This document shows positions 33,397 to 63,242 of a DNA stretch of 64,000 nucleotides, piece after piece. The translations under genes and the position numbers were made by a program. Source of the stretch: Glutinoglossum americanum (taxonomy: Eukaryota; Ascomycota; Geoglossomycetes; Geoglossales; Geoglossaceae). The first letter of the stretch is position 1. Every line of letters starts with the position of its first letter. The notes under the pieces are model-generated. The model saw nothing but the letters and a program-made list of their open reading frames with translations, was not told the DNA's origin and searched no databases. The stretch spans positions 1 through 64,000 of the forward strand of contig JAGHQL010000045.1 of the NCBI GenBank assembly GCA_020080175.1, written 5' to 3'.

Positions 33397-35117
33397 TCAC
33401 TTCTTCCCACCGAGCATCGTCGTGAGAGCCACGACGAGAGCGACCACGGCGCTAACGCCCAAGCCCAGCCCCCAGATCAGCATCTTATAAGCCAGAAAGA
33501 TGAGCGCCAGCAGGCCCTCCGCCCCCTCGGGAACCTCGGTGCTGCCCGCGTCCTTCTTCTTCTGCTGGCCCTGGAAGGTCGGGATGCTGTCGGGCAGGCC
33601 GACCTTGCCGTTGAGGAGCGACGGCGGGGCCGAGAACCTCTTGGAGCGTATCCGGCGCCCCTCGACGAGGGCGACCGTCACGATGGCGGTCACGGCCACG
33701 TCGACGATGTAGAAGGAGTCGATGGACGCGAGGCCCGCCGTGTCGACGAGGAGGGACTCCGTCGAGAACTCGAGGGAGGCGAGCGGGGCGTCCTCCTTGT
33801 TTGGGTTCAGGAGCTGGACCGTGCCGCGCGCGCGGGGGGAGTCGAAGCCGATTTCGCCGTCGATGCGGATGGCGAAGGATTGGCCTTTCCCGCCGTTGAC
33901 GCCCGGGTGCCAGAGGTAGTAGCGCTCCTTCTCCGAGTCCCAGAGGAGCTTGCAGCATTCCTTCTCCGCAGCCTTGCTGACCGCCTCGCGTGCCAGCGCT
34001 TCGGCATCGCAGGATTCGACGCCCTGGTATTTGACGCGGGAGGCTGTGGCGTCGAGGGCCATCATGGCGGCGATTTTTGGGTAGATGAGGGTGATGAGGC
34101 CGTCGTTCGGGGGGAGGCGGCGGGAGGGAGGTTCGAGGTCGAGGGTTATGACGGGGATGATGGAGCGTTTTACCGGGTCGTGGCGGCGGACGATCACTTC
34201 AGAGTAGGCAGCGTCGAAGCTGTTCTCTTTTAGGGTCTGGAAGTCGAAGAAAGGTTCCGTGCGGGATGGGCCGAAGGAGAAGGCTTCGCTATGTGTCGGG
34301 GTGAAGCTACCAGAGGCGGGATCGACGGTGCCGGCTCTAATATTCACTTTAGCATTCCCCACGATAGAACAGCGCAAAAGCGAAAGAAATAAAAGAAAGA
34401 AAGAAAAAAAAAATGGAAATGAGAAACCTACCGGCACATGCGAAGTGCAAAAGTCCGCCCAGCGTCCACGGCGCCTTGCCCGTTCGCAGTCTCCCACAGA
34501 CCAGCAAGCTCCTCCAAGCTCGAATATTTCGGCTTAGGCTTGCCCATAACCCCCGTAGGAAACGACATCATCGCCGCCGGGGCGGTAGATATCGTGCTCA
34601 TGACCCCCGGGCTAGAAGGCGAGTTCACACTCAGTGATTCTCCCGACCTGACTCGTGAGGGCCGATCCATTCGGTGATAGTGCTGCTGCGCTAGCGGGAG
34701 AGATGGGTCGTAGCGCGGGAACATCGACTTGATGGGAGGAGGAGCGGCTACGACCGATGCAGAGCTGTTGCTTCGAACGAGCGTCGCGGAGCCAGAGAGG
34801 TCAGAGTATTGGTTCGTCAATGCTGGTGAAGCAGCCCTCGGGTCCTTCGAGCGCGCGCTCGACGTGGTGTCTGCGCGAGAGTGGCTACGGTCGATGACAT
34901 GAGTTTTCGGTGGCGCCTTGACGGAGCCAGCCCGACCCAAGTCCGACGAGACGTGGAGGATGATCTCCTTCGTGTGGATGGCTGATTTTTCGGCCGTGTT
35001 TATGACCACCGGAGACGATGACGTTCTTACTGGATACCGCCGGGTACCCTTTCGCTTTGGGCGGGATGCCTTGGGTGCCGGGGCGGGAAAGAGCTGCAGT
35101 GGAGATGTTGATGCCAT
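33397..35117 (-). CDS. conserved fungal protein with C-terminal membrane anchor
   Basis: Exons 35117-34432 and 34336-33397, 541 aa, with a 96-nt intron (GTAGGT...AATATTAG). The start was chosen at MASTSPLQLFPAPAPKAS. Another ATG lies two codons upstream (35123). Aa 1-200 are basic and Ser/Pro-rich. The conserved parts are LEELAGLWETANGQGAVDAG, then EPFFDFQTLKENSFDAAYSE, TLDLEPPSRRLPPNDGLITL and YPKIAAMMALD. A hydrophobic C-terminal helix (MLIWGLGLGVSAVVALVVAL) followed by GGKK suggests a tail anchor. I recognise the family as fungus-wide but know of no proven function. The 3' splice site could also be read at neighbouring AGs, but only this one keeps the frame. Confidence 0.75.
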
Positions 35118-39304: not shown

Positions 39305-41330
39305 ATGGTGTTTCTGTTGGAGCAGCATACGGTGGCTTCCATGGGGGGGGGGGGGGGGCAGCGCTGGAAACATCTTCTCCCAAATTTGCTCGACTTGCTG
39401 GTTAGCAACATCAAGAGCGCCGACACAGTAGTGAGAACGTTCAGACATGCCCGGAAAACCACGATGGTTTTGGACGGGGGATACCGGATTTACCAACATC
39501 TGTTGGGCAAAGGCATTCCCAGCGATGACGTTTCTGAGGCTTTCCTTGACTCGTTGAAGGCTGGTGGCCTTGGTGAATATGTCTTTGCCTAAGCTGCTTC
39601 TCGGAAATGGCGCCTCCCCCTGCTATCGAAACGGCAAGCCGTTCTCCCTTGCCCTTCGCGAGAACTCTCTCGTGGCTGTGAGGCTTCTGACCCAATACCT
39701 TGTCGACGACAGCATGGCCACTGTCGCATTTGACGTTGTGCGCAAAACTCCCTTGCTCCAAAAACATGTGCGGGTGGAGATCTATCGCCCCTTGTTGGAA
39801 TGGAACATCAGCAAATCGTCCCTTTCTCAAGCCCTTTTGGACAGTTTCAAGGGCGATCATCCCGATATCTCCTTTTTGCAATTACTCCTTGCAAAGGACG
39901 CGGACCCAAACAAAGACAATGGCCATTGCTTTGCCGTGGCTTCCAAAGCGGGAGCGTTCGCCGAGTTTCGAGCTCTCAGCAAAGCTGCCGGAGGTTCTGA
40001 AAGTGCTTCTGAACAATTCTCAAAAGGAATGGGAAATCGTACTGTGGTTTAAGATATGTCTTGAGGAACAACCCCCGATTGGGGAAGATTGATCAGGATG
40101 AGCTGGTGTTCCAATGTATGCGTAAATTCCCAGGGGAACCACGCCCTCGAAGCTTCTCCTTGACCGAGGGGTGTCTGCTTCAGCAAAAATAGATCACTGC
40201 CTTTGTGCTAGCTGGAAGCCAGAACCATGTACGGCCCTGATCTGGGCTCTTTTTTCAAAGCCTAGGGTTGAATGAAAACAACGTCATCCTCGTACTCCTG
40301 TCTCGGGGAGATGCAGGCATGTTGCACCTTTACCATATCGTATTTCCTTACGGCTGACAAACGGTGCAGCACTCCCGGCATATTCAACGCTACTGACAAA
40401 AGCATCTGCAGCTTTTGGCTGCCTACCGGACAAGACGCGAATTCCCATCTTGAAAGCTCTACTCGATCTGGATAGAGACCGAATATCAGACTACGTGATT
40501 CCTGGATCCTCTTTTGGTCCCCTGGGTGTGTACCCAAAGGTATTCAAAACGGACTCGGACCTTTTGGATGCCGCAGTCGAGCTCCCTCTGCGCGAAGCCT
40601 CTCTATACTTGGGCAACTTCGAAGCCTTTCGCCTCATAACGCGTGAGATGACGCCGAACGATGGAACGCTTCATCTCGCGGCGCTTATGGCGCTGCCCAA
40701 ACTCGTCAAAGCGCTTCTAAAAATCCATGATCCAGACCACAAAACAGAAGAGTTCGACAAACATGGTACCGCTTGCCTGCGTTTGCGCATCTAAGCCCCA
40801 CCCTTGGTGTAAGATTGCCAACGAAGAATCGGACCGGAAGACCCGGCAGAGAGACGATACAACTCCTGGCTCCTAGAACCAGTCCTAAGTGGCGATATAG
40901 AAACATGACGATTCTCCGTTGGGCAATGGATAACGGACTTGATACGGCCAAGGCCATGATCGAGGCTCTAGATATCCGTCACGACCCAGAGAGAGACGAA
41001 AAGTATCTCTACATGGACCGAGACGGGATAGAGTACTCGCCACAGCAATACGTTATGAAAGTTTGGGACGCTGATAAGAAGGAGGAGAAAGCTCTCAATC
41101 GCAAGCCTTGAAGATGCCGCACTGAAGTCCCGCTACTTCAAAAGGATATTACCCAACGAAGGAGATCAACCGCCGGGCTATCACGGCTTGCCCCCTAGTT
41201 TGGCTAAAGTGTGGGAGGTGCACGAGAAATCTCCACTATGAACGGATGCAGCTTATCAGGAAGGGTTCATCAGGGATTTTGCGGAGCTACTTGGAGCGGG
41301 AATACTCTACCAGGGGTGCAATAATCACGT
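39305..41330 (+). pseudogene. decayed ankyrin-type repeat gene
   Basis: Reading frames in succession match a fungal ankyrin-like repeat protein: YRIYQHLLGKGIPSDDVSEA, LLLGNGASPCYRNGKPFSLA, EIYRPLLEWNISKSSLSQAL, FLQLLLAKDADPNKDNGHCF, then GTLHLAALMALPKLVKALLK and IPLACVC-like sequence. The C-terminal domain reads NMTILRWAMDNGLDTAKAMI, YLYMDRDGIEYSPQQYVMKV, SRYFKRILPNEGDQPPGYHG and EGFIRDFAELLGAGILYQGC. At least four frame changes separate these parts (near 39,570-39,590, between 40,050 and 40,440, near 40,780 and near 41,100), and a G16 run sits at 39,343-39,358. No introns explain them well. Such proteins are often C-terminal partners of NACHT or other signalling domains. Only the repeat part is visible here. 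Confidence 0.65.
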
Positions 41331-42432: not shown

Positions 42433-45400
42433 CTACCAAAAGCTACACCAACCGATATAATGCTGGCAAAGATTCTCTAGGGACGTCGCCTGCTGCAACA
42501 ACTTGTCTACTTGATCTGGCACCGCAAGCTCCTCGTTCGGTCGGAAGTCGTGGCCTGTCAGCTTGGCCTTTACCCTCTCCAACACCTGCAGGGCTCGCGC
42601 GTTTTGGACCTCCTTTATCTCTGGGACGTTGGCGAGGTCCGCGTCGCTGAGTCGCGGCGCTCGGGGGCGGTATGACGCGCCGTTTGGTTCGAAGCCCTCT
42701 ACGATGCTCGCGCGTCTCTCCGACGGGAAGCTGGGTTCTGGCGGACTCTCTCGGTTGCCCAATCTCCAGTGCATCAACGGATCGTGTAAGAAAGCTAGAT
42801 TGTCCCGTTAGCTTGGCGCTACAGGCATCGGAAACCAAAAAAAAATTTTTTTTTTCTCTCGCAAACTAACCTTCCAATACCGCCATCAGAGATTCCTTAT
42901 TGTCTCTCAAGACACGCATCACGGCTTCGCAAGTGATCCTGAAGCTTCCCTCTATGTTGCTGACCTCCATAGCGTAAGTCAACATTCGAGTGAGTCTAAA
43001 AGGCACTTTCTCCGGGTACTTCTCGCGGTGCATGGCAACCTCGAAGCAATCACCAAAGTCAATGTGGATAACTTTCCCGGTGATGCGATCCAGCATCAAG
43101 TTGGACGGGTGTCGGTCTCCCAGGCCTAGGATATAGCCCACCATCGACATCACGCCGAGTGATCTAGTGTAGTTTGTTCGCCTGTCAAGCCACGACTCTG
43201 AGCTCTTGCTCTTCAGCCACAACACTCGGTAAAGATCTTGGCCGGTTGTGTTGTCTAGCGCATAGCCGAACACTTCGACCTTCTGCATCAGGGTTAGGTT
43301 ATCGTAGTCGGGGGCCATCTGAAGCATGATACGATGCTCGATGTTGAGCAGGATTTTGCGGCTTTCCCGGTACTCTCGGATCAGGACGTGGAAGGTGTCG
43401 CTGTTGGGAACCCATCCGAGCAAGCCCGAATTCTGCGAAAGGGGAATGACTGGATACCGCTGGATGTTAAGGTGCCTCTTGAAACATTCCGAGTCGACCG
43501 AAAGCAGCGTGTTGACCAAGCCGAAGAGTTGCATGACACGCTCGTCCTGCCGGATATCTTCGTGACCCTTGAGGGCGTAGGTATAGGTGACGCCGTCGCT
43601 GCCTTTCATGCTGAGCTTTCGTGGCCGCTGCTTCGAGTTGATGACCACAAAAGTCTGGTCGAAGCTAGCAATTCGCACAACCGGCTTCCCGCTTTGATAA
43701 GTCCCAGGCACCGCCAAATCCAAATCGTGAGCGGTCTGCAGCTTCGGCGAAACGTATTGAAGCTCGAGGTTGATAAGTTGAGGTAATTGTCGAGCAATCT
43801 TCTTGAATACCTGATAGTAAAGATCCCATGCCTGGTTGAGGTCCCCAACCTCGCCTGAACGACGATAGGTTTGGCACCAGTCGCGAGCTTCCTGAAGTTC
43901 GCGTCCGAATGCTTGATGAAATGAGATTTCTCTTAGCGTCTCGGGCCCCTAAAGTAAGTAAGCATCGCAGTTTTTACTCCGGGGGGATGATACGTACCCG
44001 TTCTAGTAACTCGTGTAGCGGTGCTAGTGTTGCGAACATGGCTTCAATGTTGTGATCACCGAAATACCTGAGTAAGACGCTATCAATACTAGAATCTCTA
44101 TGTGACGAGGGGTGTGGGTGGGACGGGATTCATACAATCTAGAGGCTTCTTCGAGACCTTCGTGCCACAATTCATGCCAAAGTACGGCCACCCGGATAAG
44201 CTCATGGCTCACGATATCCGCTTGCTCTACCAACTTCAGGCTGTGCTGTTTCATGCTATCCATAATCTGGGATGCAGACTTCTGTCGCCGGGATAGGTTC
44301 GATTTCATGGCTACGGTTAGAGGGTACACTAGCGCCTGTGGGTGTGCTCTTCCGACGTCCGCCATCAATTGGTGGATAGAGTGCCTCACAAGCTGGTTGG
44401 GCTGGTTGATGCGCGCAATGAGCTGAGGAATGACTTCGAGCCATGTGTCAACACTGACGGTCGAGAAACCTTCAGTTACAGCGTTGTTCACGTCTTGATT
44501 TCCCCCGTGCGCAAACCAAAGGGTAAGCAGCCGGAGCGTGTCCTGCAAGGAGCTGCCCGAGGACAGCGATATCGACCTAAAGAACCCTTGTATTGCAGGG
44601 ACGACGTGGTCGATGATGGTATTCTGCGGTAGGTGTCCCGTCTCGCGATCGGCCATAGATGTGATAGATGTAACTACTTCAAAATTGGCTAATGCCCATG
44701 CGTGCCACGCTTTGTACCAATCACGGTTGAAATGTGTCGCGGCCGAGTAAGATTGGAGAATATCATAGACGTGATCGTGCTGCCAATCTCCCTTCTGCAG
44801 AGCAACTTGCCACTCGCCTTGCTTCAAATAGCATCGTGCTAGGAGTTTGGTGTACTCGTCCAACTCCCGAACTGGGGGCTGGACGCCGGGTCTGATCCCA
44901 TTAATTCCGTTGATTCCGCCGATGCCATTGACGCTCGTTGCTCCGTTCGTGATTGGGAGGTGGCCGTTGGGAGCTCCGAGGTCGTGGGACATTCTCGTCG
45001 TAAAGTCCTTCAGATGGGCCAAGGCCTCTCTTTGGTGCCCGGTGGACCACATGTACTTTAAATGTGCATACATTACTTGGGGTGGCGCGCGTGTATCGGT
45101 TGATATCGAGCCAATATTCTCACTTGTGTCCAGGAGCGAATTGAGCGACTTCTCGGCCAAACCTATCCGATTGGACTTGCGACAGAGATTCGAGAATTTT
45201 ATCCACATCTCCATGTTTTCCTTTGGTGATATGACCAGAGCTCTAACTTTGAGCATCCTCTGCCAAACTTCGACGTTTCTCTGACATCCTTTTAGTCGCT
45301 TCATCCAGGTGCGTCTCATTGTTTCTTGTTTTTCAGGGTGGCCGTTATTCTGTTTGTAGGTGATGATCTCCTCTAATTCGGCAAGCATTTGCACACGGAC

Positions 45401-48400
45401 GACAACGCCGTAAGCCCGGTTATACGACTCGCCCACAAGAGCGCTCAGCTCTGTGTCGAGCCCTTCCCTAGCCTTTTCAATGTGCATAGCCGCATCCTCA
45501 AATTGGTTACGGTGAAGAGCAAGAATAGCCCCGAAGAACGACCGATCAGGCGAATTTGTTCTCATGACAGCGAGATAGTTGTCCATGAGTTCCCACTGGC
45601 CTAGGCCCCAAGCGGCTGCCGCTGCTAACGGCGCAATGGCTCGCCGGTAATCTCCAGAAGCATGTACCCATTTGTCCTGAGCTAGAGTGGATAACACATC
45701 CCACTCTCCCAATGCGTGCAAACAGCGCATCTTCCCCATGGTCACTTCGAACGAATTCGGTTCCTCAAGTTCGCGTCGCTGGTAGGCTTGCAATGCTTCC
45801 TCCCATCGCTGTAGTTTCTCAAACCAAGTTTCCTTCAGACCAACGTCGGAATAAATTTGCGCCTTTCGAAGGATACCGATAGCTGCATCCGATTGCTGCA
45901 ATTGGTTGTTTATACTGATCAACGCCTCGATGGTGCTTGTCTGCGGCTCTTGGAGGAACTCCAATTCCTTATAGTGTAGTGCTTTTGCGAAAGCATGGCA
46001 TTTTGCCGCGTACATGCCGAGTGTCCGGATGTCGATAGGGAGAGCCTTGTCGTCATGCTCCATGAACTCTGCGAGGTTCAGAAGTATTTGAAGAATTTCA
46101 GGGGGAATATGAGGAGAAGTGATGGCGATTTCGATGGATCGAACTAATTCCTCTTGGTATTGGTCATACAACTCCGTCCAACACGACACAAAAGCTGCAT
46201 TGAAGAGTTCTTTTGCAAGGGGATAATAAACACCAGCCAGACCAGCGCATGCGCGAAGAGCATGCGAAGGAGATTCCTTGAGCAGCTCCACACTGAATCG
46301 TCTGATCCATTCTTGCCAATCTTCCTTGGTTGATTTCTGCGATGACTCCCATGCATTTTTGAGATGCTGTTGGTTCACGAGAAGTTTCTTTTGACCGCTA
46401 TCTGCAAATTGGACTTCATCGGACTTGTCCCCATATCGTTTATCTGGGCTCAGATCCTGGGGTAGCGGTTCCCCTTTTTGTAATTTCGATACAAGGAGCT
46501 CATAATTTGTATGCTGGATCCGATTCACAGCGAGTACCTAACATTTTTGTTATAAGATTGGGGGAGCTGCGTTGGGAAGGGCGGGGGGAGGATAGTCTAC
46601 CTTGTTGATCATTGGAATGTAGTGGATGTAATCCCGACCTAGCTGGAACACGAGCGCACAGAGTGTGTCGAGTGCTGCTTGCCTTAGGGAGTTATCGCCG
46701 CTGGACAGCGTTCGAGAAAGTGGGTGTATTATCTTGGAAGCATAGTCCGAGATGTTGACCTTTCGTGATAGTTCCGCGATGGTCTCGATGGCCAATACAC
46801 GGATTTGCATCGGCTGCTGTACTCTCTCGAACATCCGCACAATGACAGGGATAATGAGATGCATATACTCCTCGCCACTGGAGCCGAATACGAGGAAGGC
46901 ATGTAGCACTTTCTCGGACGGCGTCCTTCGCGGAGTATTATCCTTCTCGAGGACCTCTAGCATTAGCGGAAGCAATTGGGCGAGGTATACCTTGAACTCT
47001 CCCTCCAGAGATTTTGCTATCGCCTCAACTAGTTGCAAGATCGTCCCCTGAAGTTGGGCAGACGGGTGCCAATAGTCCCGAATAAGGTCAAGAATATCAG
47101 GCAGGAAGTTTCGGATGTGTTGTCGAACAATTGAAACAAGAAGACTGAGTTGATTAAAGTAGGATTCGAGCCGGCTGGATGGCGAACTTCGGATGACTTG
47201 AAGAAAGCCTGGTATGATTTGTCCGAGGAAAGGAACACACTTTAGGACCAAAGTCTTGAAAATGCTCATGATGGCGTCGATCACGGCCAAGTAGTGGTTT
47301 GCGAGTGATGGGTCTTTCAGCATGTTCATCAGCGAATTGATGACTACGGTAGGCGCGTATTCTTCGCTCGACGGAGTAAGTCCGGTCATAATCAACGATA
47401 CGTCCGTAACCGCTTGAGCTTGGTCGACTAGTTGGCTCTCTGGAGATTTCTCCATCTCTTGCTGCATGCGAGTCAGATATGCCTCAAACCATAGGCTATA
47501 GAATAGAGGTATTGCTTCTACCTGATGCTTGTATGGGTCCAGAGCACCAAGAATTCCCATCAGTTTGATGGTTTCCTTGCGTAAGAAACCGGTTTGCTCT
47601 GTCTTCACAATATTGACGAGTATGGAAAGCAATTGAGGGTAATCCGTATAAGGATCGATGACATAGCCAGAATTACTGGCTAATTGCCCCAAAGTATGCA
47701 ATGCAGCTTCCCTCTTAGCAGGGGAGCTTTGGTCTTGCAAAGTCTCAATGATAATAGGCATAAGTTGAGGGATGTAAGGCAGCATCTCTTCTCCTCCGAC
47801 CGTCGCCAGCTCGCCAGTCGCCTTAAGTACGCTTGAAGCGACTCCGGCGCTGGGATCACGAGCTTTAGGCAGCAAGACGGTAATCATAGGGTCGACATAG
47901 GGCTTGATCAGTTTCTGTGCAGCGGCAACGAGGAGACTTAGCAATTTAGCGCTTTCTTCCTTATTTCTTGCAACATTAGAGTACTCTAGCTCCGTCAGTA
48001 GCTGTATGAGGGTTTTTCGTAAGGACGGCATGACGTAGGCTGGGTTGACCTGAGTAAGGCGGCCGATAATGGTAATTGCCGCTTCCCGAATGGCGAAAAC
48101 CTCGTCGTTAAGGGCAAGGAAAAGGGTCCGCACGTTTTCCGCCTTTGCGAGGTGACGGTCAAACCTTGAGTCCAAAGACAGGAGAACGGTGCGCCGGATG
48201 TCGGGATCTACAATATTAGAGATGGGAAATATTCAAACCCCGGGGTTTTACATACCAGCATCCGCAACGCCAACCGTGAGAAGTTTTTCCATAACTTCGC
48301 CTACCACCTGGATAGCATGATTGCTCGTTTGATTCACTATAGGATCACGGACGAAGAGCTGGCAGCATGTCAGGGCAGACGCTTTCCGTATTTCGGCATT

Positions 48401-50119
48401 GTCGTCTTCGACATATTTGATAGCGACGTCTCGAACAAATTCATTGAGCACCCAGCCTTTTCATTTACGTCAGTTTCCTGGCTGAAGCTTAGAGAGTTGA
48501 GGTCTTCACCTTGAAAGTCAAAACTCCCGAGAGTATGTAAAGCTAAAGCTATCTCCGTTTGGCGATTCTCGAGCGCCTGAGGATCCTTGTAATCTTTTGA
48601 ATATAATGGTGGGATGGGGAGTCCATTTGGAGGACTGCCTAATGGCTTGAACGGACGTCCAGAGAGCACCATACTGAGCATGTCTAATAGCTTTTCCTGT
48701 ATTGTTGGCTTAACAGGGGGGATGTAGTGAGCCATATCGACAAGTGCTTGTGTAAGAGATTCGCTCAGGCCACAAGCGAAAATTGGATCTAGCAGGGCTT
48801 CCATATATTTGCTCAAGGTTTGCCCAACTGCAATCGAGAGCATACTGATACACTCGAATACCGGTGCCTCGTTTGCATGTCGGTTTCGGCTAGTCAAAAA
48901 TGAGTAAACTGGTAATGTATAAGGAGCGAACAGAGATTCATACGCTTTGAGACTTAAGGCTTCTCTGATATATACCAATATGGAGTCTAGGTATGGCGCA
49001 ACAGCGCTGCCAACTGCACTCGCTACTTTCCCAATGGCGATGAATGCAGGATTCCGCTCCTTTTCCTTTTTAAGCTGGCCTTGAAGGTGAATCATGAACT
49101 TGTGTAGGTACGAGGCAACAAAGTCCATCGGGGCATAAGACGCTAGTATTGGGATGAGCGTAACAATTTGGCGCCGGATGAGCTGCTCTCGGTGATCTCT
49201 AAACTTAAAAACAATTTCGCACGCCTCCCGGTAGTGCTCTTGCATGAACATTCCACCTTTCTGTAGAAGCTCTTTCATAGTGAGCAGAGAGCCATGTATT
49301 GACTCCGTAGTATTAAGCTTGAGGCCATGTAAGACTTCCTCATAGATCCTCGAAAACCACTGGCTTCGAAGCGTCGCATCTCGAAGAGCAATTATTTCGA
49401 AGCAAGTCGAAACAGCCTCGGCCGCGGACTCGCGGATGAGAACCTTCGGATCCCTCAGAGCAACCCAGATTAGTTCGAAAATCTGATGTACGAAGGCATA
49501 GAGAAGCGTTGGAGAGTTCCTCGCAAGTTCGCGTAAGGTCAAGACAGCAGCGAACCGTCTGTTCTCTTGCCTATCAATCTGCAGCCACTCAAGAGCTGAC
49601 CTAACCTCGCTCTCAACTAATTCCGCCGTTAGCGTTCCACCGGGAATTGCAAGTCTTCCTAAAGCACGTGCAGCGTAGACCATCGCATTGATATCGTTGC
49701 CCCGCATAACCGTCCGTAGATATCCGGCGAACCGGGTCGTTTTCTGGGCCGCATCATCCCCATCGAAATCTATCAAACGATCTAGTGCGAGGATACCTCC
49801 AACCCGCTCGTTTGTGTCGCTACCATGTATGATTAGATGTGATATCTTGCTGTTGACGATATTGTAAGTTTCTTGAAACTTGTCCTGAGGTAATTCTGCA
49901 GACTGGTTAGCTAGTTACTGTGAAGACTGAAGATACATACCTCTCGATGTAGTCACAACAAAATCTCTGAGGTCGCATGCGGCCCTCTGGCGTGCTTCTT
50001 CATTCCTAGAAGCGCTCGTTAGCCTTCTATTTAGAGCAGTTGTGCTATCATTACGCAACGCACTTGGACTTTAGCTCCTGGAAGATGCGACTTAGGGTAT
50101 CAGGCGCCTGTTGCGACAT
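42433..50119 (-). CDS. tor: TOR kinase (target of rapamycin), PIKK family
   Basis: Nine exons: 50119-50064, 50005-49941, 49895-48510, 48456-48256, 48207-46601, 46537-44136, 44067-43998, 43948-42871 and 42794-42433. They encode 2408 aa, the expected length. Introns are 45-76 nt and every join is in phase. Aa 1-1100 are HEAT repeats (start [20 protein letters not shown]). The FAT domain follows to about 1890. The FRB domain contains [20 protein letters not shown] and [10 protein letters not shown]. The Ser, Trp and Phe that contact FKBP-rapamycin in mTOR (S2035, W2101, F2108) are all present, so rapamycin sensitivity is predicted. The kinase domain has [11 protein letters not shown] (catalytic Asp near 2208) and HIDFGD (near 2227). 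The FATC end is [13 protein letters not shown] works in TORC1 and TORC2 to link nutrients to growth. Divergent from the RICTOR gene. Confidence 0.97.
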
Positions 50120-50645
50120 GTTATCAGGTCTCCCGTCTGAAACGGTAGTTATTCCGAAGTCGTCCTATTCTCCGCCATGTATGTTGTAGGGTGAGCGATT
50201 GCTGTTAATACTTGAGCTTTCGAAAGATCATACATGTATCGGTAAATGGGAAACGGGCGCCTGGTCCGAGCGTCTCTCTATTGACCAATCGGCTATCTAT
50301 TCTCCCCCATGACTTAGCACGGAAGACACAGTGTTCGTTTACTAAGCAGCGTTATGATATCTCCGGGATCCCCTACTGCAATTGTCCCTGCAGTTCGTGA
50401 GATCTCAGAACCAACCGTGGGCTACAGTAGCCGTTCACTTGTTAAAATTAGAGCATTGAAGGTTGTTGTTGTTAATTGACAGATGCGAAGCTTCTCAAAT
50501 TGCCTTTAGCGGAGCCTCAATCCCCGACCTCCGGGCCCACATACGCTGCGTTGACTGGGCACTATCGCATGAACGACAGTCCATTCTCATACCCACATGA
50601 ACCTGCTGTACCACGGAGGTTAAGGACCCTCCATTAGATGGGGAC
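50120..50645. promoter_or_regulatory. shared upstream region of TOR and RICTOR
   Basis: 526 bp separate the two start codons on opposite strands, so both promoters and leaders must lie here. A CCAAT box (50285-50289, within TTGACCAATCGG) lies about 165 bp from the TOR start. A TTACTAA heptamer (50339-50345) matches the Yap/AP-1 consensus. A TTGTTGTTGTTAATTG stretch follows near 50465. No TATA box is evident. The site assignments are consensus matches only. Confidence 0.55.
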
Positions 50646-53600
50646 ATGGCAGGGCCTTCGAGCATTTCTAGTTCATCTGCGACCCCGACCCAGAAGACTG
50701 TGCTCTCGTACGCGGCTCCTCCACGTATGGCCTCCAATCAAGCTACGGATACGAACACCATTCGTGATGGCTTACAACCACCACGTGCTGCGCACAGTGG
50801 GCTTCGGTCTGTGTCAAATGCCAGTGGGGTTAGTTATGGCCCCCGAGGCTCTTCTCTCGCCCCGTCTGCAATACCTGGGAGCTTCAGTTCTGTGCTTAGA
50901 TCGACAGTGACGCAGCGGAGTATTGGTTCGCGCCCGGATCTGTCTGTCGCTATGGGTCTGGACTATCCGGTCCAAGACGACGGAGCGACTTCGGAGAGAG
51001 CGCTGGCGGATTTGAAGGATAAACTTAACAAGGAGATTAAGATTAAAGAGGGGAGCGAGAATCTATTGGAGGCCTTGAATACAAAAAAGGCAAAACAGAC
51101 GAAGGACCAGAGGTATAGAGTTGAAGAGGAGTTGAATTCGTCGAATCGCAAAATCAACCAGCTCAAGAATGAAATTGAGGCTCTTCAGCGACCTCAACCA
51201 CCACCAAGCGCGTCCAGAGGTCGGCTTTCTGGAATTTTCCGTGGCAACCCCTTGAGGCCGGCTGCAATGAATCCTTCGGTAGTTGGTGTAAACCGGTCAG
51301 ACGTAGATGTGGAGTCAGAGACAGAATCGCCTACGTTCACGCTGGCTGAGATACTGCAGTCGCTGGAGACGGAGGGTATGGACTGGGGCTACTACGTTGA
51401 GAGGGCGAACAGCCTTGTTGAGCTCCTCAAGCGGCATCCCCTGTTGAAGTATGACTTGGTTTGGCCAGTCTTCGGTTTGCGCGTGCAGATGATGCTACTC
51501 AGCGATAGTAAAGAGGTGGTTGCCGCTGGATACCGTATGACCAGATATGCGATCACGGATCTCAAGTCACTCCGGAACATCCGAGAATTGAATACAGACT
51601 ATCTCGTCATCTTGTAGGTTCTACCTTGCTCTTTTCCCCAGGTCTCACTAACTAGCATGCTCTCGATTTAGATCACTAGTCAAAGAATCCAGAGCTAGCG
51701 TGGAGCGAGAACAGGCTCTGAAGTTTGTTCGAGCGTTTATGGAGGTTAAGGGCGGGGTGCGCGAAATATCCCGGGCCGTCTTACGAGCTGTTGTTGCAAT
51801 AGCAGAACATACAGATGATCGATTGAGGATGATTTGTATAGAGACCCTGGCAGAAATCTGTAGGAGCATCGATACCCTTGTTAGACACCTCTAAAGCTAA
51901 TTATATTAAGTAATTCGGGATCCCGAATTACTACTCTCCGCCGGGGGTGTTGGACCTCTAATTGATGTGCTTGTGGAAGGTAGCTACGGATCTCCAGAGA
52001 CTTTGGTGGGGGCATTCTTGAATTTGTATGAGACATCCAGCCGTCGAAAGTATCTACGATCGGGACATGAGCTAGAGGTACGTAGAGGCGCTGGATCATT
52101 CGGTCAATTGTGGTCGTATTTATGCAGCCCTAGGTCCTTTTCTCGGCCTTTACAGACCCTCTAGCATGCCAGGGGAACGAACAGAAACTCCGTTCGAATG
52201 CCAAGGCAATAGCAACGATACTAAAAACGTGGTCTGGTGTGTAGCCCACCTTCAACATTCTGTCCGCATATGCTAACGGAGAGTGTAGGCCTCCTTATTG
52301 TATCTATGTATGAGTTCCGTGCCCTGAAATCTCTCGTTTCGGCAATGTACTTTCCGGATTCTCAGATACGGGCAAGTCTCCCCTTAGGCCTACCTAAAGG
52401 AGGACAATTGCTTATAATGAAACAGGATATGATTTTAGAATTGCTCTTTGATGTCCTACGCATCAAGTCGCCGTCATGGTCTGCATCTTTTCTGGCCGGA
52501 AGAAGGCTCACTAGTGAGTTGCTCCCTGCTGGAAATTGAGTAAATAGGCTAAAAGCTTACTGCTTCCCAGCGTATGGTCGTGTCGCCAATTTGAAATCTG
52601 AATCGTCATCGCATCCTGCCATTTCCACCCAGGAGGACGAAATGAGCCAACGGAGTTTAGTGGAGCACTACTCAACGGTTGTACTTGCTGTATTCTTTGA
52701 GGCCGGCCTCCAGAAAGTGAGCTGGTACAATATACTTGGAATGTTTGATCTACGGCTGACACATTTGACTAGGCTCTTCTGAATGTAATTGAGACGAGCC
52801 CCGATACTGCCCTGAAGAGGAAAGCTACTTTGCTACTAGGAGAAATATCGAAAATGGCCGGCCGACTACTTCCTAATAGCTATAGTGCTAGCTTACAGCA
52901 GCTGCCGGAGTTGTTTGCTTCAGCATCTAAGTTCGGGGACTCGGGCCGATTCATCTCAACCAACGCAATTTATCAAATTGATAGTGTTAACAGAACGTTG
53001 GAGCGATCGGTCACTGCTGCTCACGTGTCTTTGATAAAGGCTGCTGTGGAAGATGGGCGAATACTGCAAACTCCGCGGCACGCCGAACAGGTGAAGATGA
53101 AGACAACTTTGAGAGTAGACATGGATGAAAGCACCTTTCGAAGTCTTCTAATCGACACCCAAGTCCTAGCTACCATAAATTTTATAAAGTGGAAGTGGGA
53201 CCTGATTTCGCAGATCGTCGAAGGACCGTTGCGTAACCCGAAGCGGATGGATGAAGCAATAAGGGGGGTAAAGTTCGTGAAGCGCCTAACCGCATTTTAT
53301 AGACCATTCAAGTATAGGTTCTCAGAGATCAAGAACACAAAGCCAAACCAGCGATACGTCAGAATCGGCTGCGCGCTCATACACACACTGCTGCAAAACC
53401 CTTCCGGTGTCAAATACCTAGTAGAGAATAAGTTGCTTAGACAGATAGCGGAATGCTTGGCTCATTGGGACCGGGTAGGTTCTCCACCACTTTGGATCCA
53501 TCGTTAGAGATACCGTACTAATTAGGTTCAGATGAGCGGCTTGACATCACCATCGCCCTTATTCTCTGCAAACCGTCTTTCTGAAACTCTGTGTGGCGGT

Positions 53601-55396
53601 TATTTTGAGATTTTGGGTACTCTAAGTAGCGACCTGAAAGGTCTTGCCATGATGGAACGTTGGCGGATATTCAACATGTTTTATCACATCGTCGAGCTGA
53701 AGGATCGAGACGACCTGCTTCAAGCAATCCTAGATAACATGGATTATACTTTGTAAGATTCCCCAAGTGTGGGTCTGTTGAATTTTGCTTAATCATTCTA
53801 GTGATGGCCATCTCCGTGTCCTTCTCTCAAGAGCGCTGACGGCTTGCTCAAAGGTAAAGATGGCTCATTCCGAGCAGTGCGACGGAGTTGTTAACCTTCA
53901 ATAGTCAATTCGTATCTTTGCAACGAATCTCTTGCGCAAGTATGCAACTGCTCAATCACAGCCGTCAAAGACCTCAACGGGAACTGTAAATGTGGACTGG
54001 GCAATTCGTCTCCTTGTCACTCAACTCTATGACCCAGATGTCGAGGTCTGTGGAACAGCAGTAAAGATACTCGAGGAGGCATGCAATCGAAAGCACTGTT
54101 TAGAATATGTGGTCAAGTGCCGTCCTGCTTTGGATCATCTCGGAGATATTGGTGCTCCTCTGCTTCTACGGTAAATGCTATTACCCCTCTGCCGAAATAA
54201 GACTGACATGCACAGATTCCTCTCTACATCAGTTGGATACCACTATCTCCATGAACTAGACTATATTAATCAGGCTATGGATGACTGGTTCCTTGTAAGT
54301 AAAATTCCTGTCATCCCGCCGGGCGTGATCGAGCTCACCAATAATTAGGGTCGGAACGACATATATGTCACGATTGTGGAAGCATCTCTCTACCGAGCTC
54401 TCCACATGGAGCATGAGAAGCCCCAGCGTAATGCCAACGATGGGCAGGAGCGTACGAATTATGGCATCGTGCCCCCTCATTTCTACCGTGAACTTACCCG
54501 TACTACCGAGGGATGCAAGCTGCTAGAGGAAAAGGGGCATTTCACAGAGTTTGCCGCCACTATTAGGGATTTCGGAATGGAGAAGGACGATCCGGAGATT
54601 ATCCTCAAAGTAAAGGGTTGCATGTGGGCAGTCGGCAATGTTGGATCGATGGCTCTTGGCGCTCCGTTTCTAGAGGAGTCGGATGTTGTTCGACAGATCG
54701 CCAAGATCGCTGAAGAGTCAGAGGTCATGAGCTTGAAGGGGACAGCATTTTTTGTGCTAGGCCTTATATCTCGAAGCATTCATGGCATGGAAATTTTGGG
54801 AGAGTACGGTTGGGATGGCGCAACGACGGTCATGGGTGAATCCATCGGGTTCTGCGTTCCTCTCGAACTAAAACGCCTCTTCTCGGTAAGGAAATCATTA
54901 ATTGCTCTTGCATTTATATAAGACTAACTTAAGCTTTCGTAGATCAAGCCATGGATCCGAGTGACAGACAAAGAAGAGGAGCGAAGAACAGCTTTGGCTA
55001 TGAAATTCGCTACAACAGACGAGGAGCCAACGAACACAAAAATTCTCGAGATGGTCCGTGATTTGGGAAATACCGTGTTACTGAAGAAAAACTCTGGAGA
55101 TCTTGCCCGGTGGGTTCCTCTTCCTCTCAAAGCTTGAGTCTGCGATCTAACAATCGCGCAGACTAAAAGCAAAGAAGCTTGCAAATTTCAAAGATCCCCG
55201 ACTCTTTCGCAAAGTCATGACAATGCTAGAGTGCCACCATTACCGACTACCGGCCCGCCGCTTCCTCATCGACTTGTTTGACAAGAGCGTCATGAGACAG
55301 ATTGTCTTATGCGAGGAATCCGATAGCGAGACTGAGAGAGGCGCTAATGACGATTCATCGACAAATTCCCGGCCTCCAGCTCCAAACGCTGCATAG
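50646..55396 (+). CDS. tsc11: RICTOR homologue (Ste20/Tsc11/AVO3), TORC2 scaffold
   Basis: Fifteen exons: 50646-51613, 51672-51859, 51911-52077, 52134-52236, 52289-52371, 52426-52513, 52571-52716, 52773-53474, 53526-53752, 53802-53853, 53905-54170, 54216-54294, 54349-54885, 54943-55109 and 55162-55396. They encode 1335 aa, like S. pombe Ste20. The N-terminus is disordered, then a coiled coil (aa 117-183, ADLKDKLNKEIKIKEGSENL) resembles an HR1/REM repeat. Pianissimo-type helical repeats follow (MDWGYYVERANSLVELLKRH, ALKFVRAFMEVKGGVREISR, SETLCGGYFEILGTLSSDLK, KVKGCMWAVGNVGSMALGAP). The C-terminus is Ser-rich. Fourteen introns of 45-58 nt are used. One (52372-52425) has a GC donor (GCAAGT). The protein defines TORC2, which phosphorylates AGC kinases and controls actin and membrane homeostasis. 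The TOR gene lies next to it in divergent orientation. Confidence 0.93.
51909..51932. repeat. perfect 24-bp palindrome at a splice acceptor
   Basis: Half-site AGTAATTCGGGA followed at once by its exact reverse complement. The first two bases are the AG of RICTOR intron 2. The rest codes for the start of exon 3 (LIRDPELL). In RNA it could form a 10-bp stem with a tiny loop that hides the 3' splice site. Confidence 0.9.
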
Positions 55397-57074
55397 GATG
55401 AGTGTTGCACGGGGCCTGACGCGCATGCAGTATGCATACCTGCATGCATTTTGTAAAATATCTACCTTTGATTTCCATCTCTTTGCCTAGGTTTTTTAGT
55501 GTGGGCCGGCGAAAATTTGGGTTCGGTCACGGAGGCGCTCTCAATCTTGCATTTAGACATGTGGAGATGACTCGGTTCGGAATATGAAAGCATGGCTTCT
55601 TGCATTCACGACCCAAATTACCAAGAATCAAGAGATCGGATGGTGTTGCTAGTTAAGTGGCTGAGCATGGTGGATGATTGTTTAGTGACGTGTCGAATGA
55701 TCAACGAAAGTTGATGATGCTTCAACAGTGACTTTCACCCTGGGAGACGCGTACACGAAATTTCGATGGTCTCTTGGTGTTCGTGTTACATCCGCACCCA
55801 GCAAGTTGGTAGCCATCATTCATCCATAAATATGTCGAAAGCTTCGATTTTCTCAGACCAACGCGAGCCAGGAACTATGGACGAGACAGTGACATGGCCA
55901 AAGTGAGGCCGACCCAGAACCGTGGCCGTGGGCAGAGCCCGCTGTACATTGAATAAGAATCCGCTGGAGCTTAGACCTTCTCTACGAGCGCCAGTCTATC
56001 TGATAGCAGAGTCTTTCCATCTAACTGGTAAACTCTCGTGGTTCGAAGCTTGCGCATGCGGCATACGACGAGAAGGGCTAGTGCTTCCAAGGGTAGAGCT
56101 GTCTTTGTTTGAATTTAGCTCCTCTGATGGGATGTCACCAAAAGATATCAGGTCTAGACTCTGCCCAATGCCGCAACAGCCAGATAGAGTGTGAGATAGT
56201 GTGGAGAGTGCGAGCTGGCAAAAGGGCGGTCAAACGGGAGTTAGAAAACAAGATAGATTAAGATTCAACGCTATCCAACACGCAGGATGTGTTCAATTAG
56301 GGGAGGGGTACCCTATTGCTACACGTATGTACAGCGAATATACCAGGTGTACATAAGTTTTCAGAAATGAAGCGGTGCGATGGCCCGATCCGTAGACATC
56401 TCCGCGAGATCGGAGCAACGTATGGTGGTGTCATCGATCGAGATGCAGAAAGCCGCAAGGGAGTGCATGAAGACGTGGAGGGGTGGCTTTGCGAATGCTA
56501 CGCAGTAAACAACCGACCACTTGTTTGAGAATAGGTGGTGTGTGCGGTTGCCTCTTTTAGGACATCCGTCCGCATACCCTAGTAGGCGCTTGAGGCTTGC
56601 CCGAGCCGATACAGATTTGATACAAGTCTTGACATGCCATTCCAACCTTCGGCGTTTTCAAGCCAGGCTTTGTATTTTATATGTAACTAGATCAACTAGA
56701 TCAGCCCAATCAAAGGGGTCGAGACCCCAGATCCTAGTTCTTGGATTGAACTTAGTTTCATCAGTAGCGGCAAAATCTGTAACTTCCAGAAAAAAGGGCA
56801 CAAACGAGCAAACGAAGAGAAGATTATATCACCACCCTGCAATCACCTTGCGGCGAGGCTGATAGGAAGTGAACCGTGGACTTATATGGAGCGGCTAGAG
56901 TCAACAATCTTCAATTGCACAATCGTTGAATGAGTTTTATCGTTTCCATATCGCGAGTGTGTTTTCGCCCACCGCTGTTTCGACAATTGCTTACGCGGCT
57001 GTTACCGCCGCGGAAGTTTTCAAGTTGAGGAAGGCCACTCCAGCGCCCTGCTGCTGGTGGATCTGGCCGGTTTG
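55397..57074. other. intergenic, RICTOR 3' flank and CrgA-like 5' region
   Basis: 1.7 kb between two genes on the same strand. No convincing reading frame, and short ones at 55922-56194 and 56361-56645 carry no domain. The sequence is not particularly repetitive. The last 150 bases should hold the promoter or an upstream exon of the RING-LON gene. Confidence 0.5.
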
Positions 57075-58631
57075 ATGGGCGATCATGTAAAGCTCCCGGG
57101 CAATGTGGGGAGCAGTTCTGGCCTCGACGCCTATCGGGATGCTCGAGCCATCGTCCGGCTCGTCCAATGCCAACAATGTTCATATCCTCTCAAGCTGCCG
57201 ATGACGCTGCCATGCGGGAATTCGCTATGTCGCAAATGTCTACCCAAACCACACGTTAGAGAAAACATTTCGTATCCGAACAAGCCGGAGCGGCAGCAAG
57301 GCTTTGTGTGTCCCTTTGTGGAATGTAGGAAGGAACACTCGTTAGGGGATTTTAGCTTGGATGTCACCCTCACTAAGGTCATGGACGTCGTTGGGAACGA
57401 GACGTCACACTACCGATCGCTTGCGAATGACAGCCTGACGCTGGTAGAGGAAAAGAAGGTAGGCTGGAGTCATGGCCAGAACTCTTGGTCGGAATATGGG
57501 AAGCCTAGGTCGAGAATTTTGAATGGTGGACGGCTCTTGACAACGTATACTCTTGCGGAGATGGGTGAATTGGAACATGATGCGGATACCACGTACCAAA
57601 CTATGTCCGATACAGGAGATGACTACCGCAGTCTAGATGTTACTATGCTTGAGAGCCTGAGGGAGTCAACCCGGAGTGAACTAGATTGCCAGGTATGCTA
57701 TGCGTTGATGCTAGATCCATTGACCACATCCTGCGGACATACGTTCTGTCGGAAATGCCTTGTGAGGGTGTTGGATCATTGCAACAACTGTCCGATATGC
57801 CGTCGAACACTAACGGTGGCACCGTCGCTGTCTCTCGAATCGAGCAACAAACGTCTGACCGAAATCCTCATTGGTTTATGTCCAGACTTACTTGCCGTGA
57901 GAGCAGAACATGCGTCTAGAGAAGACAGAAGCACCGTCGGTGAATTGGACACACCGCTATTTATCTGTACGCTCTCATATCCGGCCATGCCAACTTTTCT
58001 GCACATCTTCGAAGCTCGATACCGACTCATGATCCGCCGTGCCGTGGAAAGCGGCTCAAGGAAGTTCGGCATGCTCATGTACAACCGATCCGGCGAGCCG
58101 CAAGGCGACCTAGGCACCACCCAATTCATGCAATACGGTACACTCTTGCGTATCGAAAATATCCAGACGCTCCCTGACGGTCGCAGCCTCATCGAAACCA
58201 TCGGCATCTCACGCTTCAAGGTCAAAGCTTGGTCCATGCTAGACGGTTACACAATCGGCAGCATCTCCCGCATCGACGACGTCTCCCTCGCCGAAGAAGA
58301 GCGCCTTGAAGCTTTCGAAATAACTGCTGCGACCCCAACATCCACCGACCCAATCGGCCAACAGCTCGACCGCCTCTCTACCCGCGCCCTCCTGCAGATT
58401 GGCATAAGCTACGTGAATCGAATGCGTGCCAGTTCAGCTCCTTGGCTGCACGAGCGCATCTTGACAGCATACGGTGCACCGCCGGAGGACCCTGCGCTGT
58501 TCCCGTACTGGTTCGCGAGCGTGCTGCCGATTGCGGACGAGGAGAAGTATCGGCTGTTGCCGACGATGAGCGTCAGGGAGCGGTTGAAGATCACGGCGAG
58601 GTGGATTAGGAGATTTGACCAGAGATGGTGA
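57075..58631 (+). CDS. crgA: RING finger and LON-substrate-binding domain protein (CrgA/LONRF-like)
   Basis: Single exon from the first in-frame ATG (57075, MGDHVKLPGN), about 518 aa, ending RFDQRW. The first RING-like module is partial (CQQCSYPLKLPMTLPCGNSL, CRKCL). A complete C3HC4 RING follows (CQVCYALMLDPLTTSCGHTF, CRKCLVRVLDHC, CPICR). The LON N-terminal domain is PLFICTLSYPAMPTFLHIFE, ARYRLMIRRAVESGSRKFGM and onward. The architecture is that of fungal CrgA and animal LONRF proteins, presumed E3 ubiquitin ligases. Fungal entries are often misnamed ATP-dependent protease, but there is no ATPase or protease domain. An alternative ending exists. A GTGAGT donor at 58628 spliced to CCGCAG at 58809 replaces the stop with PSPSSCTVI (stop 58838-58840). 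An upstream exon cannot be excluded. Confidence 0.88.
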   Translation: MGDHVKLPGNVGSSSGLDAYRDARAIVRLVQCQQCSYPLKLPMTLPCGNSLCRKCLPKPHVRENISYPNKPERQQGFVCPFVECRKEHSLGDFSLDVTLTKVMDVVGNETSHYRSLANDSLTLVEEKKVGWSHGQNSWSEYGKPRSRILNGGRLLTTYTLAEMGELEHDADTTYQTMSDTGDDYRSLDVTMLESLRESTRSELDCQVCYALMLDPLTTSCGHTFCRKCLVRVLDHCNNCPICRRTLTVAPSLSLESSNKRLTEILIGLCPDLLAVRAEHASREDRSTVGELDTPLFICTLSYPAMPTFLHIFEARYRLMIRRAVESGSRKFGMLMYNRSGEPQGDLGTTQFMQYGTLLRIENIQTLPDGRSLIETIGISRFKVKAWSMLDGYTIGSISRIDDVSLAEEERLEAFEITAATPTSTDPIGQQLDRLSTRALLQIGISYVNRMRASSAPWLHERILTAYGAPPEDPALFPYWFASVLPIADEEKYRLLPTMSVRERLKITARWIRRFDQRW

Positions 58632-59817: not shown

Positions 59818-61443
59818 CTAAATCAACTTCAGCTGAAATCCACCCCCCTTCTCCTCCAAATCCCTCCCCGCAAAAATCCCACTAAAATCTACCACGCCCG
59901 CCCCGCCACTCTCACCCAGTCCTGGGGCCTCCCCTCTCCTCGGAGCACTCGGCGACACGAGTCTCCTCCTCTTCTCCTGGCCGGCTTTGGAGGGAAATGT
60001 CGGGAACATGGCGGTGGATTTTGGTTTGGGATCTTCGCGGAAGTAGGGGTGTGCGAGAACTTGGGCGGCGGTTGGGCGGTCGGCGGGGTTTAGGGAGAGG
60101 AGGGAGGTTAGGAGGGAGGTTCCAGAGGTGGTGAGGAAGGGGAATTTGGAACGGATTACGGAGCCGATGCTAGAGGGGATTAGCTGGTGAGGTCATTTTT
60201 TGGGAATTGGTGGAGATTTTTACTTTTGTTGGTTACGGGGGAGGCGGAGGGACCTAGAATTTGGAAGGCGTCTGAAGCCTGGCCAGTTTTCTTCAGTGGG
60301 GATGCCACAGAGTTCGAATATCTGATTCAATTTCTGGCTTAGCAGGTGGTCCAACGTAGCTAAATGAGAAAGACTTAAAATAAATCTGAATATAGAGGTA
60401 AGTACCTTTGATAGTTGATCCACCTCGTTCTTCCCCTGCAATAGCGGCTCTTTGGTGACTAGCTCCCCGAATATACACCCAATGCTCCACATATCGACTT
60501 CCCTCCCATACGTCTCCGCACCTAACAGCAATTCCGGCGCACGATACCATAGCGTGACGACCAACTGGGTCATCTTTGGCGGAGGGTCGCCAAAATATCT
60601 CGCCATGCCAAAGTCAGCAACCTTCATTTGGCCACGATTGTTCATGAGGAGGTTGGACGTCTTGAGGTCGCGGTGGAGGATCCAGTTGCTGTGGAGGTGT
60701 TCTGTGGCGGAGACGAGCTGGAGGAGGAGGGTCTTTATCTCTGAGGGGAGGAATGGTTCGGGCATGTCTTCTTGGAGGGTCTTGAGATCGTGTTCAAGGA
60801 AGTCCATTACCAGGAAGACACTGAAAGGGAGAACTTTGATTAGCCAATTCCGTCCCTCTGACCGCACAGAACTTGAGTTCTAGTAAGGCAAAGGAACTAA
60901 GCAAACTCACTCCTCGCTCCTATCTCCCATAACCACTTCCCTTAAATTCACAATATTAGGATGTCTCGACTCCATCAACGTCTGTATTTCCCTCAATCCC
61001 GTAACAGGAAACCCATCATTCGCATTATCCATCTTCAGCTTCTTGAGAGCCACTATCTCCCCTGTGGCTGCCTCCTTGGCTCGAGACACCCACCCGTAGG
61101 AGCCTTCTTCGATGTGGTTGAGCCGCTCGAAGTTGTCGACATGACGGCAGGGTCCCCATGAGGGTGCGGGGAACCGGAGAAGCTTGGCGGGCGGGAGGGG
61201 CTTGAGATCTGAGGCGGGAGATGCAGAGAGCTTTCTTCGTTTTGCGGGGGGGACGTGGGTGCCATTGTCGTCTTGTTTGGTAGCTGATGCTGCCTCTTGT
61301 TCGCGACGCTCTTGAGCTTCCTCCAACCTTCGTTGTCTCTCAGCCTTTACCCTCTTCCTCTCTTCCTTCTCACGGCGCCTCTGGGCTTCGGCCGCTGCGT
61401 CCTCTTCATCGTCTGCCCAGCGTGATTTAATCTGACTCGCCAT
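59818..61443 (-). CDS. cdk11: cyclin-dependent kinase, CDK11 (PITSLRE-like)
   Basis: Exons 61443-60911, 60820-60406, 60321-60224 and 60169-59818, 465 aa, with introns of 90, 84 and 54 nt. The N-terminus (aa 1-90) is a charged Arg/Glu helix (RRREKEERKRVKAERQRRLE) typical of CDK11. The kinase domain begins FERLNHIEEGSYGWVSRAKE (Gly-rich loop), with VALKKLK (catalytic Lys), a PVTGLREIQTL C-helix in place of PSTAIRE, HRDLKTSNLL, VADFGMARYF and a T-loop ending TLWYRAPELL. The third join gives SLRLPRNQQN-IGSVIRSKF, which fits the family. The C-terminal extension is Pro/Arg-rich. In S. pombe Cdk11 acts with cyclin L on Mediator and RNA polymerase II transcription. It is divergent from the NDUFAF7 gene. 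Confidence 0.93.
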
Positions 61444-61583
61444 GTCGCATCGGTGCTTGGATGCTGGTCTAGGGTTCGTTGGTTTTCCGAGAACTCCAAC
61501 AACACAAACCAACTTTCTCACTAATGCCACTAATTGTTTCACTTCGGGACCCTCTCCCGTAAATAAGTTGAAATACCTCAAAG
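61444..61583. promoter_or_regulatory. compact bidirectional promoter of CDK11 and NDUFAF7 genes
   Basis: Only 140 bp lie between the two start codons, so promoters and both leaders overlap. No TATA box. It contains CCAACAACACAAACCAAC and a short T/C-rich stretch. Spacing is shown by the sequence; shared regulation is inferred. Confidence 0.55.
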
Positions 61584-63242
61584 ATGAGGCGTAGATTATG
61601 GATCCCTGTGCAATTCTGCACAAGACCTGCGCGACTGGGGAAGTGTGGGTTTAGACGGGGAAGCTATGGCAGCTTCAGATATTCATCTACGGAAGCTCGC
61701 CAATGGTCGACTCCATTGGCACGTAACCTCGCTGAGGCCATAAAGGTATGTCAATGAAGTCTAAAGCTATAGGGAATCCTTCATGCTGATATATTCTAAA
61801 GACTACAGGCCCAATTCCTCTAGCATCGTATATGCGGCAGTGCCTAACTTCACCTCACGGCGGATACTATACATCTTCACAAGATGGTCATGACCAATTC
61901 GGGCGCAAAGGGGACTTCATCACCTCCCCCGAGATATCGCAGATATTCGGAGAACTTATAGGCGTATGGATAGTCGCCGAGTGGATGGCACAGGGCCAGA
62001 AAAGTAGAGGCGTGGAGTTGATCGAAGTAGGACCCGGCAGAGGTACACTGATGGATGATGTATTAAGGGTACAGAGCCCTCTCACTAATGCTCTTAATTT
62101 ACGCAATTGCTAATCCACCGCGGGAATAGACGATGAGAAATTTCAAACCCCTAGCATCATCCATCGAAACTATATATATGGTAGAGGCTAGTTCCTCCTT
62201 GCGAGAAGCACAGGAGCGACTTCTCTGCGGGGACACATCTGTGGGAGAGGATAAGGAAGGCTTTAAGAGCACAAGCAAAACTCTAGGTGTACCAATGGTA
62301 TGGGCCGAAGATATCCGTTTTGTTCCAAAAGGTAAGCTCTCAAAACCAAACCGCATGGCAACCGCCAACATCAAAACTCACTCCAACTTCTTCAAAGATC
62401 CCTCAAAATCCCCCTTCATCATCGCCCACGAATTCTTCGACGCCCTCCCCATCCATGCCTTCCAATCCGTCCCTCCCTCGCAGCCGACCCTAATTACATC
62501 CACAACCATCCCCCCACCCCGTACCTCAACCACCCCGCAATGGCGAGAACTCCTCGTCACACCCACCCCTCTAAATTCCACTCACACAACCCTCTCCACA
62601 CCCCGCTCACAGCGCCATACCGGCGCTCCCCCGGAATTCCAACTCTCCCTTGCCAAAGCATCAACCCCCCACAGCCTCCTCCTCCCAGAAACATCACAAC
62701 GCTACAAGGCGCTAAAATCTCGCCCTGGCGCAACTATCGAGATATGTCCGGAAGGCCAATCATACGCCTCAGAGTTCGCCCGGCGTATTGGCGGCGATGC
62801 CGGGAAGTCGGCGTCAGGCGCAGCGCTAATTCTCGATTACGGCCCCGCGTCAACTATTCCCGTGAACTCTCTCCGGGGGATCCGTGCCCACAAGACAGTT
62901 TCACCATTCTCATATCCTGGCCTCGTGGACCTTTCCGCAGATGTGGACTTCACCGCTCTCGCGGAAGCCGCCTTGAGCGCTAGTTCTACGGTGGAGGTAC
63001 ATGGTCCTATCGAGCAAGGGTCGTTCCTGCAGGCCATGGGGATCCGGGAGAGGGCAGAGCAGTTACTTATGGGTGTGCAGAAGGGGGATGATGAGAAGAA
63101 GGAGAGGCTCGAAGGGGGCTGGAGGAGGCTAGTTGAACGTGGAGTTGGAGGGATGGGTAAGGTGTATAAGGCTATGGCCATTGTACCGTTGAGTGGTGGG
63201 AAGAAAAGACCGGTGGGATTCGGTGGTGATGTAGAAGTGTGA
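61584..63242 (+). CDS. NDUFAF7: mitochondrial NDUFAF7/MidA-type protein arginine methyltransferase
   Basis: Exons 61584-61745, 61802-62068, 62130-62331 and 62398-63242, 491 aa. The start MRRRLWIPVQFCTRPARLGK is Arg-rich without acidic residues, a typical mitochondrial presequence. Then come PLARNLAEAIKTTGPIPLAS, the family block YYTSSQDGHDQFGRKGDFIT and SPEISQIFGELIGVW. The SAM-binding motif is VELIEVGPGRGTLMDDVLR. FIIAHEFFDALPIHAFQ is the next hallmark. Intron 3 (62332-62397, GTAAGC...TCAAAG) is 66 nt, free of stops and in frame, so retention would insert 22 residues just before PSKSPFIIAHEFF. I remove it because the splice restores the spacing usual in the family. NDUFAF7 dimethylates NDUFS2 (Arg85 in humans) during complex I assembly. 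Confidence 0.92.

Follow-up and report, generated by a model that had tools for sequence, protein, structure and literature searches.

The question raised by this locus is whether the head-to-head arrangement of the genes for the TOR kinase and for RICTOR, whose products are known partners in TOR complex 2 (TORC2), reflects selection for a common promoter or the ordinary reshuffling of gene order. The stretch analyzed (hereafter the window) comprises bases 1-64000 of contig C258 (150,217 bp) from the Glutinoglossum americanum genome, an assembly of 25.77 Mb in 317 contigs, and its fungal nature is evident from its gene content, short introns and matches. Within it the TOR start codon at 50119 (minus strand) and the RICTOR start codon at 50646 (plus strand) are separated by 526 bp (50120-50645). 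An earlier note on this DNA had proposed that a shared promoter would couple the two genes and could bias the balance between TORC1 and TORC2. We confirm the identity, intactness, orientation and spacing of the divergent pair. Judged by conservation of the adjacency in other fungi, the proposal of a shared promoter tuning TORC1 against TORC2 is not favored; instead we propose, with a probability of roughly 0.6, that these are ordinary, intact genes with a single place each in the genome, and that mesosyntenic shuffling of an old linkage group brought or kept them side by side.

The TOR gene runs on the minus strand from its ATG at 50119 to the end of its stop codon at 42433, and the spliced model encodes 2408 aa with 8 introns (50063-50006, 49940-49896, 48509-48457, 48255-48208, 46600-46538, 44135-44068, 43997-43949 and 42870-42795). 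For both TOR and RICTOR the introns were set manually, guided by splice signals and the three reading frames rather than by transcripts, and individual boundaries may be inexact. An automatic gene model was rejected once the frames had been read by eye, as it missed the FRB exon of TOR and extended RICTOR into the following gene. The hand-set TOR model carries HEAT repeats, mTOR_dom, FAT, FRB, PI3_PI4_kinase and FATC domains of Pfam, all in one protein that ends in HYIGWCSFW. An 834-aa exon matched the PDB TOR2 chains 5fvm and 6emk, which we take to be from K. marxianus and S. cerevisiae, respectively, with E values of 0 and 1.3e-281. With this same exon TOR2 scored best at 1024.6 bits, ATR falling far behind at 53.4 bits. 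Searches of the fungus's own genome, here and below, scored the best candidates only; within that scope the FAT exon of TOR matched at one place, the TOR locus itself. When relatives of this exon were sought among bacterial and archaeal genome contigs, 5 stretches matched a pattern and none proved to be a relative, and no pattern match was obtained in viral contigs.

RICTOR, a member of the Avo3/Tsc11/Ste20 family, occupies 50646..55396 on the plus strand and is predicted to encode 1333 aa with 14 introns. Its Pfam domains are, in order, HR1, RICTOR_N (covering all 371 profile positions), RICTOR_M, RasGEF_N_2 and RICTOR_V, and the RICTOR_N family matched at one place only in the genome, the RICTOR locus. 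Two boundaries, a donor at 53475 and a GC-AG intron, were revised to obtain an open frame. The latter is intron 5 (52372-52425, plus strand, 54 bp), which has an apparent GC-AG boundary; it contains no in-frame stops, and its retention would add 18 residues. A further observation concerns the RICTOR start, where an out-of-frame ATG at 50638, 8 bp upstream, opens a possible upstream open reading frame (ORF) of 90 aa (50638..50910, plus strand) that overlaps RICTOR. RICTOR would have to be translated by leaky scanning past this ATG, or its transcripts would have to begin downstream of 50638.

On the structure of the locus the earlier note was borne out. Its four coordinates (50119, 42433, 50646 and 55396) were recovered from the start and stop codons, the 526-bp spacing and opposite strands from the gap, and the identities of the genes from their Pfam domains; its view that both are whole agrees with each splicing to one frame with a single terminal stop.

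The same note had looked to adjacency conserved across classes as support for selection, and other fungi do not provide it. Positions were taken from locus tags in published tables and could be scored in 7 species. In S. cerevisiae we take the TOR genes to be YJR066W and YKL203C, on other chromosomes than RICTOR. The RICTOR gene of this yeast is YER093C (PMC7032718). TOR and RICTOR carry tags of chromosomes 2 and 3 in S. sclerotiorum (PMC10100786), of 8 (with a paralogue on 2) and 10 in F. oxysporum (PMC8435236), and of 6 and 5 in V. dahliae (PMC6424901), while in P. chrysosporium TOR occupies scaffold 42 and, as a second copy, scaffold 20, with RICTOR on scaffold 8 (PMC7032718). The S. pombe TOR and RICTOR genes bear three different clone names, which give no distance (PMC7032718). 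In A. nidulans TorA is AN5982 and RICTOR is AN10756/AN5958, which places them 24 tags apart (PMC8399174). An eighth species, U. virens, was excluded from the count as its authors list no Avo3 (PMC12028740). Two further papers did not add to the count, since one gives neither a TOR nor a RICTOR tag (PMC6028147) and the other gives for A. fumigatus the YpkA tag alone (PMC6339957). A 2010 survey of the fungal TOR pathway (PMC2997006) discusses the synteny of TOR paralogues; its main text uses neither 'rictor' nor 'adjacent', and the five mentions of Avo3 examined concern presence rather than position. Altogether none of the 7 scorable fungi has the two genes adjacent, and in 5 the genes are on separate chromosomes or scaffolds, S. 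cerevisiae being counted with the TOR genes named above. A search of the open-licence literature found no description of a TOR-RICTOR gene pair in fungi.

With about 10,600 tags in A. nidulans in total, a distance of 24 tags has a chance of about 0.5%, and the two genes are thus closer than expected. A second shared element may be the CDK11-like protein kinase at 59821..61650 on the minus strand, the second recognized gene after RICTOR, whose best PDB match is CDK11B. We take ppk23 to be the CDK11 counterpart. NpkA, the ppk23 orthologue, is AN6044 in A. nidulans (PMC3591445), and we read it as the counterpart of the CDK11-like kinase found here. Because TOR and RICTOR are only 24 tags apart in A. 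nidulans and a CDK11-like/NpkA neighbor is present in both genomes, the data point to a loosely conserved chromosomal block common to this fungus and A. nidulans. In Pezizomycotina, genes tend to stay on the same chromosome while their order and orientation are shuffled, a pattern termed mesosynteny (PMC3219968), and partners can therefore become neighbors without selection. The close linkage in A. nidulans (AN5982, AN10756/AN5958) speaks in part for an old association, but the head-to-head pair itself finds no support there. An additional link to A. nidulans, through the NDT80-family gene on C258 and NdtA (AN6015), was considered and dropped, since that gene belongs to a group of N-acetylglucosamine (GlcNAc) type in which a RON1/XprG-type paralogue is expected.

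According to the shuffling explanation, a loose linkage of TOR and RICTOR would date back to a common ancestor with Aspergillus, and rearrangement within chromosomes, as is typical of Pezizomycotina, would have brought or kept the two genes side by side. Each gene would have its own core promoter within the 526-bp gap. Some co-expression via the common gap is possible, with any such coupling probably incidental at most, there being no sign of selection.

Several observations weigh against this explanation. The comparison covered the 7 scored fungi, and the adjacency may be kept in the class to which this fungus belongs. Locus-tag numbers serve as a proxy for distance only, and AN6044 may sit on another assembly contig than AN5982, given that AN6015 has been mapped close to the beginning of contig 103 (PMC3821154). 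Linkage in two lineages also fits weak selection for proximity. Lastly, a 15-bp pattern with two copies in the gap and none in the rest of the genome, described below, could be a regulatory site.

The alternative that retains the most weight, though we consider it unlikely, is pure coincidence, in which an unrelated rearrangement made the two genes neighbors and the linkage in A. nidulans is likewise due to chance. We estimated the relevant odds from 56 groups of longer ORFs in the 150,217 bp of the contig, a crude scale-up of which gives about 9,600 genes genome-wide. For two named genes this corresponds to p of about 2e-4 for being neighbors and about 5e-5 for being divergent neighbors, values that hold for one named pair where many other partner pairs could catch a reader's eye. 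A genome has many known partner pairs, of which chance alone should make some neighbors, and the separation of TOR and RICTOR onto different chromosomes or scaffolds in most of the scored fungi fits this as well. What coincidence accounts for poorly is the short distance in A. nidulans together with the common CDK11-like neighbor.

A selected bidirectional promoter appears improbable. Here the gap would act as one regulatory unit that co-expresses TOR and the TORC2 scaffold and thereby sets the share of TOR that enters TORC2. The short gap, the direct partnership of the products, the intactness of both genes and the close linkage in A. nidulans all speak for it, and the gap itself contains one further point in its favor. 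The interval (50120..50645, 526 bp, 49% G+C) holds one CCAAT at 50285, one CCCCT at 50370 and three GATA-type cores on the reverse strand, with no TATA-like box among the motifs scanned. Upstream ATGs number 10 towards RICTOR and 11 towards TOR. Bacterial promoter and terminator scans found nothing, these being bacterial models that are uninformative for a fungus. A repeat search returned two near-palindromes and three families of short direct repeats with two copies each, the best being a 15-bp direct repeat on the plus strand at 50165-50179 and 50297-50311 with 14/15 positions alike. When the gap was shuffled 1000 times by dinucleotides, a match as good arose in only 3 cases, and exact occurrences of the pattern in the whole genome were confined to these two sites.

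The repeat is nevertheless a candidate site, no more. When the window was divided into consecutive 526-bp stretches, 11 of 121 held a repeat as good or better, and among 100 shuffled versions of the window 5 contained at least 2 copies of the 15-bp unit at two mismatches; because of these two results we give the repeat little weight. The length of the gap is not distinctive either. About 10 kb away another divergent pair is formed by a methyltransferase family 28 gene, whose ORF begins at 62133, and the CDK11-like kinase, with its ATG read at 61443. These two genes have no known link and are separated by about 690 bp at most, and on this one comparison the 526-bp gap is locally unremarkable. 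The lack of adjacency in all 7 scorable fungi counts further against a selected promoter. So does the composition of the complexes, as TOR also serves TORC1, whose scaffold RAPTOR lies elsewhere (contig C253), and the TORC2 subunit SIN1 lies elsewhere as well (C85). The proposal that the arrangement tunes the TORC1/TORC2 balance is weakened because TORC1, too, would receive more TOR if TOR were coupled to RICTOR.

It is more doubtful still that TOR and RICTOR were neighbors, or close to it, in an ancestor early in Pezizomycotina evolution, with some lineages keeping the pair under selection via a common promoter and others having lost it. Were this so, the pair would be kept because a common promoter region would tie the supply of TOR to the assembly of TORC2. 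An assembly or annotation error, either a misjoined contig or a pseudogene copy, is hardly credible, since C258 spans 150,217 bp without N, the pair is well inside it, and both genes are open over their full length with one genomic place each, even though this is a draft of 317 contigs and the join was seen in one assembly.

Returning to the preferred explanation of shuffled linkage, the surroundings of the pair bear on whether other genes of the pathway were gathered with it. The first recognized gene downstream of RICTOR encodes a protein with a RING finger and a LON substrate-binding domain (56934..58631, plus strand), and it is followed by the CDK11-like kinase and the methyltransferase family 28 gene described above. 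The genome search for YPK yielded four matches of AGC type, all of them outside C258, and the YPK-like AGC kinase, named YPK from its sequence by eye, is on C124, 4.5 kb from the contig end. TSC1 (Hamartin) is at C252:107424-108110, a gene that is missing from all nineteen Eurotiomycetes examined in a review (PMC5745459); its presence here makes it probable that this fungus is no Eurotiomycete. Because RAPTOR, SIN1, the YPK-like kinase and TSC1 are on other contigs, the locus is no TOR-pathway cluster as far as these four genes go.

Two features of the contig are separate from the pair. Outside the window, from 70343 to about 85100 of C258, sequence matches (L013:6343-9033, L014:2-1321, L014:2607-3215, L014:7075-7977 and L014:9296-10000) reveal a group resembling the GlcNAc catabolic cluster of filamentous fungi. 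Its members are a GH3 plus GNAT-like protein, an NDT80/PhoG-type regulator (perhaps RON1), a hexokinase, a gene of the glucosamine-6-phosphate isomerase type and an MFS transporter. Inside the window, positions 36001-38000 display a strong strand asymmetry (GC skew -0.263, AT skew +0.253). The open frames tested nearby (33397-34497, 34428-35123 and 39558-40049) have no Pfam match, frames inside that stretch not having been scanned. For the remainder of C258, a coding score based on hexamers proved overfitted and was dropped.

As it stands, the locus is an example of how partners can be placed together when gene order is shuffled, and its mild interest resides in an unexpected linkage in two lineages. 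If the two genes were co-regulated, the supply of a shared catalytic subunit would follow the scaffold of only one of the two complexes that use it, and comparing species that have the pair with those that lack it would allow a test of whether gene order shifts the TORC1/TORC2 balance. If instead an ancestral pair had been kept by selection, gene order would amount to a natural experiment on that balance.

Both proteins conform to their families. The domain order of HEAT, FAT, FRB, kinase and FATC is common to the fungal TOR kinases (5fvm, 6emk) and to the TOR described here, which occupies one place in the genome and in which we saw nothing unusual. Similarly, the order RICTOR_N, RICTOR_M, RasGEF_N_2 and RICTOR_V is that of the RICTOR/Avo3/Tsc11/Ste20 family, and apart from noting that an N-terminal HR1 repeat is present we saw nothing unusual in RICTOR. 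Divergently paired genes are defined by starts less than 1 kb apart (PMC2670823), and TOR and RICTOR lie on opposite strands with start codons 526 bp apart; the definition refers to transcription starts, whereas the distance known here is that between start codons. The TORC2 substrate kinase sets this fungus apart from two others. In A. nidulans PkcB/Ypk1 is AN5973, between AN5958 and AN5982 (PMC8399174). A YPK-type kinase is thus near RICTOR in that species (15 tags, AN5958-AN5973) and also in P. chrysosporium (about 32 kb, scaffold 8), while here the YPK-like gene is on contig C124 instead. Compared with the mesosynteny of Pezizomycotina, for which we draw on few genes by way of published locus tags, the present case has the same character, in that two or three genes show a loose linkage in this fungus and in A. 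nidulans alike, but in a different order.

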